Shown here: in pieces, positions 14,629 to 35,512 of the stretch
How positions within the stretch are numbered: the stretch's first letter is position 1
Layout of the letters: each line of letters starts with the position of its first letter
Source: Methylotenera oryzisoli
GTDB lineage: Bacteria > Pseudomonadota > Gammaproteobacteria > Burkholderiales > Methylophilaceae
Reading direction: 5' to 3'
Assembly: GCA_945907735.1 (NCBI GenBank)
Contig: CAMDTL010000001.1
Location: 62,001 to 126,000, forward strand
DNA length: 64,000 nucleotides
Notes under the pieces: generated by a model
The model's database searches: none
What the model was told of the DNA's origin: nothing
Seen by the model: only the letters and a program-made list of their open reading frames with translations
Made by a program: the position numbers and the translations under genes

Positions 14629-15186
14629 ATGGCAAGTATCAACCCGCCCGTGTGTGATTTTGGTTGGCAAGCGCCGGATTTTAACTTGGTGAACGTCGAT
14701 GGCAACCTAGTTACACTTGACCTCGCCATGGGGAAAAATGGCTTATTAATCATGTTTATTTGCAACCACTGCCCTTATGTGAAGGCCGTTCTGCCGCGAC
14801 TTATCCATGATGTAAGTGAGCTGAAGATGTTGGGTGTGAATACGGTGGCGATAATGTCAAACGACCCAACCGATTATCCCGAAGATAGCGTTGAGAATAT
14901 GCAAAAAATCGCGTATGAGATGGACTTTCCGTTTCCATACTTATTAGATGCCAGCCAGCAAACCGCCAAAAATTATGGTGCAGTGTGTACGCCAGATTTT
15001 TTTGGTTTTAACAACAAATTCGAGTTGCAATACCGCGGCCGTTTTGATGAAAGCCGCAAAGAAACCGCGCCACAAAGTACACGCGATTTATTCAACGCCA
15101 TGAAACAAATTGTAGGAACAGGCGCAGGACCAAGAGAACAAATTGCCAGTATTGGTTGTAGCATAAAATGGAGTGAGCATGGGTAA
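14629..15186 (+). CDS. Thioredoxin-family protein (AhpC/TSA-like redoxin)
   Basis: 185 residues of thioredoxin fold with a peroxiredoxin-like family signature: QAPDFNLVNVDG near the N-terminus, then MFICNHCPYVKAVLPRL carrying a single Cys-containing NHCPYVK active site, and a second Cys in GAVCTPDFFGF. No signal peptide is seen, so it is probably cytoplasmic. The overlap with the following oxidoreductase ORF is short, suggesting co-expression. A peroxidase role is possible but not shown; the family is poorly characterised. Confidence 0.82.
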   Translation: MASINPPVCDFGWQAPDFNLVNVDGNLVTLDLAMGKNGLLIMFICNHCPYVKAVLPRLIHDVSELKMLGVNTVAIMSNDPTDYPEDSVENMQKIAYEMDFPFPYLLDASQQTAKNYGAVCTPDFFGFNNKFELQYRGRFDESRKETAPQSTRDLFNAMKQIVGTGAGPREQIASIGCSIKWSEHG

Positions 15187-16213
15187 ACTTAAATGGGGCA
15201 TTCTCGGCGCGGCGCGCGTGAACGAGCGTTTACTGCCAGCGATTATCGAAGCGACCAATTCGCAATTGGTCGCAATCGCCAGCCGTCGCACCGGTGCGGC
15301 AAAAGCCACGTTGGAAAAATATGCACCTTGTTACAGTAATAGCGTGCAATGTTACGACGATATGGATGCACTCCTAAATGACAAAAATGTAGAAGCAGTG
15401 TATTGCCCAATGGCGAATGAAGAGCACGCGGAATGGGCACTAAAGGCCATTAACGCGGGCAAGCATGTGCTTATCGAAAAGCCGATGGCAATTACGCTGA
15501 AAGATATTGAGGCGATTGAGGCTGCCGCGAAAAAAGCCAATGTGAAGGTGATGGAAGGTTTTATGTATCGCTTTCATCCGCAGCATAAACGCGTGCAAGC
15601 CATTGTGGAAAGCGGCTTGATTGGCGATGTGCTTTCTGCCCGTGCGAGTTACTCATTTTTAATGAAACCCGCCCGAATGTATCGCATCAACCGTAGCATG
15701 GCGGATGGCGGCGGTGCGATGTGGGATATTGGCCCATACGCGATTCATAGTTTACGCTGGTGCTTTGCTAAGAATGGTATACCAAACGAGCCGAAATCCG
15801 TCATCGCACATGCTAAATTGAATGAGCATGGCGCAGATATTGTCACCAGCGGTGTGCTGGATTTTGGCAACGATGCGCAAGGTCGCGCGCGCTTTGGGCA
15901 TTTCGACATCAGTTTTGAACGTAGTCGTAAATCAGAATATGAAATTATCGGCACCAAGGGTTGGGTGAAATGCCACGCCGCATGGGTGTTTCAAAACGAT
16001 GTACCAGTGATTAGCTGGGCGTTGGAGGACGGCAAATATGCCGAAGAACGCTTTGCGCCTAGCAACCACTTTACGCTGGAGATTGAGCACTTTAGCGATT
16101 GCGTGCTGAACGATAAACCAACATATTTAACTTTTGATGATGCAAAGGCAAATTGTGCCGCCCTGCAGACTAGTGTCCATGCGGCCTACGGGGCATGTTT
16201 GTTAGATATTTAG
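15179..16213 (+). CDS. Gfo/Idh/MocA-family oxidoreductase
   Basis: NAD(P)-dependent dehydrogenase, about 344 residues. The Rossmann motif WGILGAARVNERLLP is at the N-terminus and the catalytic-region VLIEKPMAITL follows, then the GGAMWDIGPYAIHSLRW stretch typical of the C-terminal domain. I take the ATG at 15179, which has GGAG five bases upstream, over the GTG at 15173. It overlaps the redoxin stop. Substrate (a sugar, inositol or similar diol) cannot be told from sequence. Confidence 0.85.
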   Translation: MGKLKWGILGAARVNERLLPAIIEATNSQLVAIASRRTGAAKATLEKYAPCYSNSVQCYDDMDALLNDKNVEAVYCPMANEEHAEWALKAINAGKHVLIEKPMAITLKDIEAIEAAAKKANVKVMEGFMYRFHPQHKRVQAIVESGLIGDVLSARASYSFLMKPARMYRINRSMADGGGAMWDIGPYAIHSLRWCFAKNGIPNEPKSVIAHAKLNEHGADIVTSGVLDFGNDAQGRARFGHFDISFERSRKSEYEIIGTKGWVKCHAAWVFQNDVPVISWALEDGKYAEERFAPSNHFTLEIEHFSDCVLNDKPTYLTFDDAKANCAALQTSVHAAYGACLLDI

Positions 16214-31346: not shown

Positions 31347-32099
31347 TTAAATACTGCCGATAATTGCTTGTTGTCTGGCTAAATCAGTTAAAATTTGCGC
31401 GCCAAATTGAATTACTGTGTCAACCTCTGGATGTGTTATTTCTTCCGCAAGTTTTTTCAATGCTTGTTTGCCAGTCATTTTATTCTCTTTAATTAAATTC
31501 AATAACTGAAAAGTAATGGAGTTTAGCTCGATAAACTTCACCTCAAACTCCGCGTTTCTAAACACCAATAGATAGGTTTTTTCTGCCATTTTTGGTTTAA
31601 AACTGGCGGAAATTCTATGCACGGGAAAGCCATATTCCAACAGCATGTGCGCGGGCGTTAGCACTGGTTTTTCATGCAGTAAATCCGTTTTCTGACTAAG
31701 TTTTATAGTTTCTGTTTGTTGTGCGGTTTCAAGCGTGCCAACCGCCAACTCCACCCATTCGTAATGCGCGAGCTGCCCAAGGTAAATAGGAAGGTCATAA
31801 GCAGGCGAGTTTTTTACCGTTTCAAGATAACTTAAAAACTGCTGTGGAATTTCTCTAAAAATAGGCGTTTTGGCTGGATGATTTTTTACAAAATCGCGCA
31901 TTAATGCGCGCCATGCACGCTTGCCCATTGCTTTTTGGCAAACAGGAAAGCAAATGGAAACTGATTCAAAAATATTATTAAATACAGCTTCGCGATAGAC
32001 TGCCATGCGTGCTGCCACTACACGCGCAGGTTTTTTGTGCGCTTTGGGGTCGCGAATATGCGCAGTAAATTCCAGTTGATAACGTTGAAAATCTAACAT
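31347..32099 (-). CDS. DUF2063 partner protein of the HvfA/bufferin RiPP pathway
   Basis: 250 residues. The N-terminal DUF2063 signature is visible: AARMAVYREAVFNNIFESV, ICFPVCQKAMGKRAW, and FLSYLE. HvfC/BufC proteins of this family bind the precursor and form the functional partner of the DUF692 oxidase. It starts 11 nt after the DUF692 gene and ends the operon. The C-terminal part (about residues 180-250) has a helical binding domain look (LLNLIKENKMTGKQALKKL). Family function is established; substrate here is inferred from neighbours. Confidence 0.87.
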   Translation of the reverse strand: MLDFQRYQLEFTAHIRDPKAHKKPARVVAARMAVYREAVFNNIFESVSICFPVCQKAMGKRAWRALMRDFVKNHPAKTPIFREIPQQFLSYLETVKNSPAYDLPIYLGQLAHYEWVELAVGTLETAQQTETIKLSQKTDLLHEKPVLTPAHMLLEYGFPVHRISASFKPKMAEKTYLLVFRNAEFEVKFIELNSITFQLLNLIKENKMTGKQALKKLAEEITHPEVDTVIQFGAQILTDLARQQAIIGSI

Positions 32100-32110
32100 A
32101 CGGTGATAGT

Positions 32111-32995
32111 CTATATACCTTTATCTATGCGGATTTCAGGCCGATTATTTTTAATTTGAAGCGCTGCAATTTTATTCACTTCGCGCATAAGTTTTGGCAA
32201 CGGGGGAATATTGCTGTCGCGCTCCAACAGCGTTGGGAAAGCGCCAAACAGTGCGTAAGCTTCGTCTAACAATTGCCACACGGGGTCTATCACATCGGCA
32301 CCGTGCGTATCGATTAATAAGCTTGGTGTTTGTTGATAATGCCCCGCCACGTGACTGTAAATGATTTTTTCTTTTGGAATTTGGCGTAAAAATTCATAAG
32401 GGTCAAAATTAAAATTCACGCTGTTTACATAAATATTGTTGATGTCCAAGTGCAGGTCACAGTCGGCTTCAGCTAAAACGGCATTGAGAAAATCAATCTC
32501 GCGCATGGTGGAAATGGGCGCTGTGGCGTAAAAAGACGCATTTTCCACGGCGATTTTTTGTTCCAGAATATCTTGCGTTTGGCGGATGCGCGCCGCGACA
32601 TAAAGCACCGCTTCTTCGGTAAATGGAATCGGCAGCAAATCGTATAAATAACCACTTTGGCCGTTTTGTATGTCGCTGCAATAACTTAAATGTTCGGTAT
32701 AAAGCGGGATTTTATTGGCGCTTAAGAAAGTTTTAACTTGTTTTAAAAATGCTATATTCAACGGGTCTGGCCCGCCCAAAGATAAACACAAGCCATGACA
32801 GGCAATCGGATAGCGCTCGACAAACCAGGCTAAATCTGCGGCAAATTTTCCACCCGCACCTAGCCAGTTTTCTGGGGCGATTTCGACAAAATTAATATTA
32901 GAGATTGCGGATTGCTGGTAGCTGGATTGGATTTGGGGAATCAGCTCGCGCTTGAGCCCCAAACCTACGCCTTTGATGTCAGCCAGTGTTGACAC
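32111..32995 (-). CDS. DUF692 multinuclear non-heme iron oxidase (MNIO), HvfB/BufB-like
   Basis: 294 residues, TIM-barrel MNIO. Motifs in order: FVEIAPENW, ACHGLCLSLGG, YTEHLSYC, VENASFY, LDINNIYVNS, SHVAGH, DTHGADV, LLERDSNIPPL. The His/Asp/Glu residues in these are the metal ligands in the family. MNIOs convert Cys residues of precursor peptides into copper-binding heterocycles (oxazolone/thioamide or thiooxazole). The start is GTG, 11 nt after the precursor stop. It should act on the (D/E)GKCG precursor just upstream. Confidence 0.92.
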   Translation of the reverse strand: MSTLADIKGVGLGLKRELIPQIQSSYQQSAISNINFVEIAPENWLGAGGKFAADLAWFVERYPIACHGLCLSLGGPDPLNIAFLKQVKTFLSANKIPLYTEHLSYCSDIQNGQSGYLYDLLPIPFTEEAVLYVAARIRQTQDILEQKIAVENASFYATAPISTMREIDFLNAVLAEADCDLHLDINNIYVNSVNFNFDPYEFLRQIPKEKIIYSHVAGHYQQTPSLLIDTHGADVIDPVWQLLDEAYALFGAFPTLLERDSNIPPLPKLMREVNKIAALQIKNNRPEIRIDKGI

Positions 32996-33006: not shown

Positions 33007-33345
33007 TTAGTGACCGCATTTTCCTTCGCCACATTTACCTTCACCACACTTGCCATCTTTGGTTTTTTTCATTGCTTCACCACATTTACCTTCACCACAC
33101 TTGCCATCTTTGGTTTTTTTCATATCCTCGCCGCATTTGCCGTCTTTGGCTTTCCCGGCGCCGCATTTGCCGTCGCCACATTTACCATCTTTGGCTTTGT
33201 CTGCGTGGTTGTCAGCAACTTGGTAGCCGCTTGAAAGTGATTTAATTGCAAATGGATTTTCTGCCGCGTTAACGCTTGCAGCGCCAATAGACAGTGCAAA
33301 TGCACCAGTAACTGCTAATGCCACTACTTTATTTGATGCTTCCAT
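33007..33345 (-). CDS. HvfA/bufferin-type RiPP precursor with eight (D/E)GKCG motifs
   Basis: 112-residue secreted precursor. A Sec signal peptide occupies about residues 1-28 (hydrophobic VVALAVTGAFALSIG, cleavage near VNA-A). The mature region is Lys/Gly/Cys-rich with eight GKCG motifs: five DGKCG and three EGKCG, in clusters joined by MKKTK linkers. EGKCG Cys residues are the sites modified in HvfA of Haemophilus. An AAAAGGAA ribosome site precedes the ATG. It lies upstream of MNIO and DUF2063 genes, so a periplasmic copper-buffering peptide is the likely role. Confidence 0.9.
   Translation of the reverse strand: MEASNKVVALAVTGAFALSIGAASVNAAENPFAIKSLSSGYQVADNHADKAKDGKCGDGKCGAGKAKDGKCGEDMKKTKDGKCGEGKCGEAMKKTKDGKCGEGKCGEGKCGH
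33022..33123. repeat. 51-bp tandem duplication in the RiPP precursor gene
   Basis: Two direct copies of a 51-bp unit (33022-33072 and 33073-33123). The 43-bp cores at 33030-33072 and 33081-33123 are identical. Each unit encodes 17 residues with a KKTKDGKCGEGKCGE-type block, so copy number sets the number of Cys sites without breaking the frame. Confidence 0.85.
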
Positions 33346-33376: not shown

Positions 33377-33646
33377 TTATGAGCGATTTGTTTGAATAGT
33401 CGATTCAATTAAGTCTGCAATGCGTGTTTTTGCTGTATGTGGCATTTCAATGGTATGGTCGCTCTCGATAGAACTTGCCACTCGTTTCACAGCAACGCGC
33501 AAAGTTTGCAGTTGTTGACTAAAGTGTTTGCAATAGGCACAAATAAGCAGATGCAATTTAAGTAATAAACGCTCACGCAACGTTAAAGTTCTATCTAACG
33601 ATTGTGAAATAATTCGACTTGCTTGCTTGCAATCCAATAAATTCAA
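33377..33646 (-). CDS. Putative zinc-finger anti-sigma factor
   Basis: 89 residues, TTG start. The HLLICAYCKHF stretch is an H-x3-C-x2-C zinc-binding anti-sigma (zf-HC2-like) signature, with an upstream MNLLDCKQASRIISQSLDRTLTLRERLLLKLHL helical segment that is typical of small ECF anti-sigma factors. It lies 24 nt after the ECF sigma pseudogene and 31 nt before the RiPP precursor. With the sigma gene broken, its target may be missing. Confidence 0.72.
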   Translation of the reverse strand: MNLLDCKQASRIISQSLDRTLTLRERLLLKLHLLICAYCKHFSQQLQTLRVAVKRVASSIESDHTIEMPHTAKTRIADLIESTIQTNRS

Positions 33647-33670: not shown

Positions 33671-34207
33671 TTATAAGCACTTCCTTAATCCCATGCGGTC
33701 TCTATACAACATCACCCAAGCATTGGTCGTGCTGATTTCAGTTCCTTACAAATTTCGTCATTATCAGTTTCATGCACATCACGCATCAAAAATAACTGTG
33801 CTAACTTGGTGGGTAATTTGTCCATGCACGTTTGCAGATACTCAAAAATTGCTGTTGCTCAAGTGCATTCTCTGGCATATCCCATGTTTGTAGTGTATCA
33901 GCCCAATGACCTGTTGCATCAAAAAATTCGTCCATACTCGCGTCTTCATCAGACATTAAATCACTGGCGGCTACTTCACGCACATTTTTGCGCATGACGT
34001 CGATAATTTTATGCTTAAGTATGCCTACAAGCCAAGTACTCGGCGCAGATTTCTCGGCAAAGTGGGGGGGGGGGATTTTATGGCGGCCAAAAATTTTTCT
34101 TGCACCACATCTTCGGCCAAGTGCGGGTCACGTAAACGCGCCAGCGCGAAGCGATACAGAAAGTCACCATGTTCATTTAGCCAGTCGTGCATGGTTGCTG
34201 TTGCCAT
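33671..34207 (-). pseudogene. ECF sigma factor gene disrupted by three single-base frameshifts
   Basis: Reading the minus strand and allowing three one-base shifts restores a 179-residue ECF sigma factor. Region 2 is MHDWLNEHGDFLYRFALARL...AEDVVQEKFLAAI. Then come TWLVGILKHKIIDVMRKN, and region 4 KLPTKLAQLFLMRDVHETDN and ISTTNAWVMLYRDRM. Shifts are at the C11 tract (34064-34074, C9 or C12 needed), a T5 run (33844-33848, T6 needed) and an A3 run (33736-33738, A4 needed). All are losses within homopolymers, so decay, a phase-variable tract or sequence error are all possible. The start is 2 nt after the DUF1841 stop. Confidence 0.78.
34064..34074. repeat. G11/C11 homopolymer in the sigma factor gene
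   Basis: Eleven consecutive G on the plus strand (C on the coding strand) inside the N-terminal half of the ECF sigma gene. Tracts of this type slip at replication and can act as on/off switches. With 11 C the sigma frame closes soon after; 9 or 12 would continue past this point. Confidence 0.85.
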
Positions 34208-34209
34208 TG

Positions 34210-34662
34210 TTATGCCTTACCCACTTTTTGTTGCAGCAATTTTACGTAATAGTTAGCGTCTAGTGCGCTATTGTTGCGCTGCGCCTGCCAAATACTTTCG
34301 GCTAAACATTCTAAAATATCGTGCTGGGCTTTATGTTCAAAGCTATGCTCATTTTGATGCTTTAACTTTAAAGCTTCGTAAATACCCGCAATGCCCATCG
34401 GCTGGTTAATGCTGATTTGCTCGAGTATGGATAAATGCAAACTTATGTGCAAAAACGGATTGGTTTCGCCAAACTCGGGAAAGTACTCTTGACTTTTAAA
34501 TTGTTCTGGCGCGTCTAAAATAGCATGATATTCGGGGTGCATGTGTATGACGTTTATCGCGATTTTTTCTAAATCGGTGAGCGGTTTCTGTGCTTTAAAC
34601 TTCACCCATGCGACAAAAAAGAATGTACGCACTTCATCGCGCGATGGGTTAAATAAGCTCAT
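34210..34662 (-). CDS. DUF1841 protein
   Basis: 150 residues with the DUF1841 pattern: MSLFNPSRDEVRTFFFVAWVKF, then VIHMHPEYHAIL, and ETNPFLHISLHLSILEQISINQP. The family is common in betaproteobacteria and often near nth; function is not known. It is upstream of the sigma pseudogene on the same strand and ends 2 nt before it, so read-through into the RiPP operon is possible. Confidence 0.82.
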   Translation of the reverse strand: MSLFNPSRDEVRTFFFVAWVKFKAQKPLTDLEKIAINVIHMHPEYHAILDAPEQFKSQEYFPEFGETNPFLHISLHLSILEQISINQPMGIAGIYEALKLKHQNEHSFEHKAQHDILECLAESIWQAQRNNSALDANYYVKLLQQKVGKA

Positions 34663-34675
34663 AAACTAAGCAAAC

Positions 34676-34838
34676 TCATAAATAGGCAATATTGCTTGCA
34701 GTAAAAAGCCCGAGCACAGCGGAATATTGTAACAATTCATTGATGCCATTAATTGGCGCAATTTCGCCGTTGCCATAAAAACCAATAATGGGCATGGGGA
34801 ATAGCAGCGCCAATGGCTAATCCTGTCGCGACTTTCAT
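34676..34838 (-). pseudogene. Remnant of a FIST-like domain protein
   Basis: Between nth and DUF1841 a short minus-strand fragment begins at an ATG overlapping the nth stop (MKVATGLAIGAA). After a one-base shift it continues as PMPIIGFYGNGEIAPING and ends at a stop at 34676. IIGFYGNGEIAP resembles the C-terminal end of FIST signal-transduction proteins. Only about 54 codons remain, so it is a decayed gene or a coincidence. Confidence 0.35.
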
Positions 34839-35512
34839 GCTAGCCCTAAGTTATCTTCACCTGCCATCAGATGAATTTTTGGGATGATTTTGTCTTTAAA
34901 TTCGCATAAATCTACAATACAGCATTCGCCACATTTTGGTGCGCGCGCGGTGCAGGTGTAGCGCCCATGCAAAATCAGTAAATGGTGCGCATCATGCATA
35001 AATTCTTTTGGAATCGTTTTTAAATATTTTTGTTCCACTTGTAGCACGTTTTTGCCCGTAGCCAATTTGGTGCGGTTTCCCAGCCGAAATAAATGCGTAT
35101 CCACTGCAATCGTCGGGTCGCCAAACGCTGTGTTTAATATCACATTGGCCGTTTTCCTGCCTACGCCAGAAAGTGCTTCGAGAGCCGCGCGGGTATTGGG
35201 TACTAGTGCATCGTGTTTTTGTATTAATTGCGTGCAACAAGCGATAATATTTTTCGCTTTGGCGTGATATAAACCAATGGTTTTAATATAACTTTCTAGG
35301 CCCGCAACACCTAAATTAACAATCGCTGGTGGTGTATTGGCTATTTTAAATAGCTTGCGTGTGGCAATATTGACGCCTTTGTCTGTGGCTTGCGCCGATA
35401 AAATCACCGCAATCAGCAATTCGAACGTACTACCGTACTCCAGCTCTGTGGTAGGTTGCGGGATAGCAACAGAAAGCCGCTTAAAAATTTCCAAGCGTTT
35501 TTCGGCATTCAT
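34835..35512 (-). CDS. nth: Endonuclease III
   Basis: DNA glycosylase/AP lyase that removes oxidised pyrimidines. The helix-hairpin-helix LSGVGRKTANVILN with catalytic Lys, the DTHLFRLGNR with catalytic Asp, and the C-terminal C-x6-C-x2-C-x5-C iron-sulfur motif (CTARAPKCGECCIVDLC) are present. 225 residues. It closes the rsxABCDGE-nth cluster, as in E. coli. Confidence 0.95.
   Translation of the reverse strand: MNAEKRLEIFKRLSVAIPQPTTELEYGSTFELLIAVILSAQATDKGVNIATRKLFKIANTPPAIVNLGVAGLESYIKTIGLYHAKAKNIIACCTQLIQKHDALVPNTRAALEALSGVGRKTANVILNTAFGDPTIAVDTHLFRLGNRTKLATGKNVLQVEQKYLKTIPKEFMHDAHHLLILHGRYTCTARAPKCGECCIVDLCEFKDKIIPKIHLMAGEDNLGLA

Follow-up and report, generated by a model that had tools for sequence, protein, structure and literature searches.

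The ECF sigma factor gene that heads a predicted bufferin operon in the 64-kb window (the whole stretch of DNA analysed here) is, judged by its sequence, a young pseudogene whose frameshifts are real features and not a phase-variable switch. We are confident of the wider account in which this gene encoded the sigma factor of a bufferin/Msr regulon, its intact relatives start transcription from within the sigma gene itself, and the bufABC genes are now presumably reached by read-through or basal transcription. The promoter-like element within the sigma coding sequence of intact relatives is new here and had been missed by the original prediction for this DNA, while the smaller number of sigma factors in smaller Methylophilaceae genomes has already been published (PMC6794327).

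Results

The bufferin locus

The window is part of contig 1 of a 1.42-Mb MAG (18 contigs, 88% complete); among named organisms, this genome is closest to Methylotenera and other Methylophilaceae. Read along the minus strand, the genes run in the order nth, DUF1841, ECF sigma, anti-sigma (zf-HC2), BufA-like EGKCG precursor, BufB and BufC (Table 1), and this order is matched in most relatives. The locus combines an EGKCG precursor, a PF05114 enzyme and a DUF2063 partner and is thus a predicted bufferin gene cluster of the EGKCG type, with copper binding by the peptide putative. The DUF1841 gene is a possible source of read-through transcription for the genes downstream.

Table 1. Features of the sigma pseudogene and its neighbours (window positions).
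Feature	Position	Strand	Remark
ECF sigma factor pseudogene	33671..34207	-	Sigma70_r2 recognisable within the opening 60 codons; region 4 shifted out of frame
C11 tract (G11 on plus strand)	34064..34074	-	First frame break; expanded compared with relatives
T5 tract (A5 on plus strand)	33844..33848	-	Second frame break; one base short versus relatives
A3 tract (T3 on plus strand)	33736..33738	-	Third frame break; one base short versus relatives
Nonsense codon TAA	33671..33673	-	GAA/GAG (E181) in relatives compared
-35-like box GTAAGG	33744..33749	-	Internal ECF-type promoter element (putative)
-10-like box CGAC	33726..33729	-	Internal ECF-type promoter element (putative)
Anti-sigma factor	33377..33646	-	zf-HC2, HxxxCxxC present
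BufA-like bufferin precursor	33007..33345	-	EGKCG repeats
BufB, MNIO enzyme	32111..32995	-	PF05114
BufC	31347..32099	-	DUF2063 + NGO1945_C
DUF1841 gene	34210..34662	-	2 nt upstream of sigma pseudogene
FIST-like gene remnant	34679..34847	-	Only ~14 N-terminal codons remain, joined out of frame to ~43 C-terminal ones

Lesions in the sigma gene and its neighbours

The three frame breaks, at C11, T5 and A3, were confirmed, but not all of them as the one-base losses from homopolymers that had been proposed. T5 and A3 are indeed short by one base, whereas the C11 stretch is a net expansion: the conserved AAA and TTT codons that flank it stand 14 nt apart, compared to 9 nt in relatives. Position 33671 had also been taken as the 3′ end of the gene; the TAA found there instead replaces a glutamate codon, and homology to sigma runs about six codons beyond it. 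Near-invariant residues are substituted as well (T41K, R58S, P107L and A172D, against 65 distinct homologues), and such changes affect 4 of 82 conserved columns in sigma versus 1 of 426 in six neighbours (Fisher p = 0.003). The nonsense codon and three of the four substitutions fit G:C to T:A changes, although these are very few events.

A functional ECF sigma factor carries regions 2 and 4 in one open frame, and both domains are present in the intact homologue; the window gene offers region 2 only, in a frame of 60 codons. All its pieces are nevertheless homologous to sigma and lie in the same syntenic order as in intact orthologues, as in a pseudogene. A second copy of this sigma was not found in the 88%-complete genome, which holds only an ECF sigma of 26% identity. 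The dead gene still has a low dN/dS, which suggests that the loss is recent, but this pooled value (median 0.09, versus 0.05 in control pairs) includes some out-of-frame codons, is taken with synonymous sites near saturation and counts as weak evidence. When the genes of the window were aligned to 400 kb of two congeners, sigma was the sole frameshifted gene in the approximately 35 kb of the window that could be aligned. A second broken gene at 15149-16177 was considered and rejected, as the alignment merely ran past the gene start.

The description of the neighbours as intact needs some correction. In the anti-sigma gene, TTA at 33638-33640 has taken the place of the conserved ATG, and only TTG starts are left; in all relatives inspected, the ATG stands at the residue before L-x-C-K. 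Between nth and DUF1841, where relatives have an open FIST-like frame of 388 codons (L081), the window retains a remnant. This FIST-like gene is also absent from the same position in several other lineages.

A promoter-like element within the sigma coding sequence

In nearly all loci, the motif TGTAAGG-N15-CGAC lies in the 3′ part of the sigma coding sequence, about 100-170 nt before the anti-sigma start. The element overlaps sigma codons, and judging from codon choice, protein coding does not explain its conservation. Cys155 is TGT and Lys156 is AAG in 47 of 47 sequences; residue 162 may be Ala, Thr, Pro or Ser, yet it is encoded by an NCG codon in 46 of 47 (the exception being L077), and no other residue of the gene has so large an excess of synonymous conservation. 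The internal element is also carried by two more distant loci (L134 and L152). In the window both boxes survive, and the A3 lesion falls within the spacer, which is 1 nt shorter (15 instead of 16 from GTAAG).

Conserved -35 and -10 boxes at fixed spacing before regulon genes, the pattern of ECF factors of the sigma-E/sigma-F type, are thus found here. The boxes resemble those of Neisseria meningitidis sigma-E (consensus GTMAGBWTT-12/13-CGTCTAAH; PMC2893595) and of Caulobacter sigma-F (GTAACC-N16-CGAA; this factor targets yedY, bufferin-type operons and doxX; PMC3511200), and the internal element is probably read by sigma as a promoter. In a pattern search of the loci, no ECF element recurred before sigma or immediately ahead of bufA; by this search, sigma does not appear to be autoregulated through the element. 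A search for sigma-70-type promoters near bufA gave three weak matches, fewer than in shuffles, and is thus uninformative. One intact sigma, that of L077 (around 3200), is alone in having an altered internal -10 box (AGAC); this locus is the sister of the sigma-less L078.

The predicted regulon and its probable dismantling

The strict form of the element, ending in CGACTAA, has 55 matches in 50 genomes versus 7 for the reversed control. Twenty-eight of the 30 strict sites inspected lie upstream of a start codon, and the same genes recur behind them: msrP (nine sites), DUF1223 (five), DoxX (five) and a DUF2282-like second bufferin precursor (three), with the remaining sites divided between a glyoxalase-family gene, msrP remnants, the internal site and others (two each). 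The element-preceded set of msrP, DoxX, DUF1223 and second bufferin operon is that of Caulobacter sigma-F.

On contig 3 of the window genome, near 58137 (G000:C3; L160/L188), an intact TGTAAGG-N15-CGACTAA is followed by an msrP (yedY) stump of 43 codons that lacks the twin-arginine. The same element precedes an msrP fragment with an in-frame stop in a Lake Baikal genome (L179) that has lost sigma independently. A DUF1223 gene that follows the element in the window genome retains an open frame. Across the 50 genomes, no clear loss of the strict element elsewhere was seen in those that have lost sigma.

Parallel loss of sigma in Methylophilaceae

Intact homologues in relatives had been proposed as a check, and they are plentiful: about 56 Methylophilaceae loci could be scored, and nearly all of them have an open sigma frame. 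Sigma is broken or deleted in six other loci among these 56, which are related, so that the counts are not independent: sigma has stops and a frameshift in L078, a deletion and a stop in L116 (Lake Baikal), frameshifts in L117 and one nonsense codon in L124, is reduced to a fragment in L093 and is cleanly gone from L114. Together with the nonsense codon and the conserved-site substitutions, this parallel loss in six other lineages bears out the suggestion that the regulator has decayed. In a tree built on BufB, BufC, DUF1841 and Nth, the seven losses fall as seven separate events, even when well-supported branches alone are trusted. The sequences thus point to at least seven independent losses of sigma, that in the window lineage included, while bufABC was conserved.

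BufABC is broken in about 1 of 178 loci versus 6 of 56 for sigma, and BufABC, DUF1841 and nth together in about 2 of 278 (p = 0.0004 versus sigma); the loci were fetched by BufB, which biases BufB towards intact copies but leaves BufC and DUF1841 unbiased. Seven sigma-lost lineages were scored at about 149 conserved columns of BufB, and six of them show 0-2 unusual changes; among these six are two from which sigma and anti-sigma are both entirely deleted. BufC, too, stays conserved in sigma-less lineages. Sigma loss goes with smaller genome size (Mann-Whitney p = 0.006; p = 0.02 when one 0.7-Mb bin is left out), in a comparison that uses rounded sizes of unknown completeness and ignores kinship between genomes.

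Discussion

A proposed sigma-dependent start within the sigma gene

We propose that the lost regulator was an ECF factor of the sigma-E/sigma-F type governing a bufferin/Msr stress regulon. In intact relatives it would start transcription of anti-sigma-bufA-bufB-bufC from the element in its own 3′ coding sequence, and would thus make its own inhibitor together with the bufferin machinery; elsewhere, it would also start msrP, doxX, the DUF1223 gene and the second bufferin operon. In the genome-reduced window lineage sigma is dead, the anti-sigma gene is without its ATG and msrP is a stump. As bufABC nevertheless seems to be under constraint, these genes would now depend on either a basal promoter or read-through that begins at the DUF1841 gene.

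The more general form of this proposal we regard as reasonably likely: that throughout the Methylophilaceae, and in two or more Burkholderiales-type loci further away, a sigma-dependent promoter of the anti-sigma gene and bufferin operon is encoded in frozen synonymous codons of sigma, giving built-in negative feedback, and that reduced genomes repeatedly drop sigma and msrP while keeping their bufferin genes under a new mode of expression that needs no sigma. The best reading of the comparisons is that the sigma regulon is dismantled in reduced genomes and that the bufferin genes survive, with basal or read-through transcription presumed.

The seven lineages would form a natural knock-out series in which the bufferin regulator was lost independently and the metallophore genes were kept, which makes it testable whether planktonic methylotrophs need bufferins constitutively. 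The analysis also predicts which promoter and which genes belong to an uncharacterised sigma of a widespread family, and the promoter overlaps conserved protein-coding sequence.

Relation to known systems

The N. meningitidis system of the sigma-E (NMB2144)/MseR operon and msrAB (PMC2893595) has the same pairing of an ECF sigma with a small HxxxCxxC anti-sigma, places DUF692, DUF2063 and bufferin-type genes in one operon, as here, and has boxes of the form GTMAG... and CGTC. In the meningococcus, however, the operon promoter stands ahead of the entire cluster and acts in sigma autoregulation, whereas here the element lies inside sigma, none recurs before it and the window sigma is dead. The Caulobacter crescentus sigma-F regulon (PMC3511200) shares the targets yedY (msrP), two DUF2282/DUF692/DUF2063 operons and DoxX, but differs in its type of anti-sigma (DUF1109/NrsF) and in its separate operon promoters. 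The bufferin/fontiphorin/oxazolin EGKCG clusters (PMC12452194, PMC13097082) likewise combine an EGKCG-repeat precursor with an MNIO enzyme and a DUF2063-containing partner, and the window cluster differs from them in that its regulator is dead. As part of genome streamlining in planktonic Methylophilaceae, smaller genomes encode fewer sigma factors (PMC6794327), a trend that our data share; that study counts sigma factors, whereas here one named regulator decays repeatedly and its target operon is kept.

Alternative explanations

The frameshifts probably do not stem from assembly error. That the true gene is intact and the consensus locally wrong at homopolymers is a suspicion invited by the origin of the record in a MAG and by the fact that all three indels touch homopolymers, but errors at homopolymers do not produce a nonsense codon and four conserved-site substitutions, the DUF1841 and anti-sigma frames on either side are clean, no further frameshift occurs in the 35 kb compared, and similar sigma losses are present in independent genomes; we consider such an error quite improbable. 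Still less credible is a contingency gene switched by the C11 tract; the original prediction had said that this tract alone would look phase-variable. No other G or C run in the window exceeds 6 nt, and 11 G/C tracts of at least 9 nt occur genome-wide, compared with 0 to 3 nonamer matches in congeners. However, a change in C11 alone cannot restore the frame, as two indels and a stop follow downstream. A comparison of tract lengths found no relative with a G/C run of at least 7 at this site (the outgroup L134 has C7), and the other long tracts of the genome are in frame within intact genes, such as that for uracil-DNA glycosylase, or lie between genes.

It is also conceivable, if unlikely, that the whole operon is dying and that bufABC has merely not yet been hit. 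The recent loss of sigma, the missing anti-sigma start and the remnants of msrP and FIST genes are all compatible with this, and in the window lineage the recency of the loss means that constraint on bufABC after the loss is not separable from constraint before it. The other sigma-lost lineages argue against a dying operon, given the conservation of BufB in six of seven, even where sigma and anti-sigma are deleted, and the rarity of broken BufABC compared to broken sigma.

Long G/C tracts

The window genome contains 16 G/C runs of at least 8 nt in 1.42 Mb, far above its congeners (e.g. 34064-34074, G000:C1:209716 and G000:C6:40669), and the C11 tract may reflect a mutational habit of the lineage. 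Loss of mismatch repair or oxidative repair was considered as the cause of the tracts and indels and was rejected, as MutS, MutL, MutY and MutM are present and open. A G9 tract at G000:C1:210408 (L046) lies near the end of a retropepsin-like frame of 110 aa, which is possibly truncated there.
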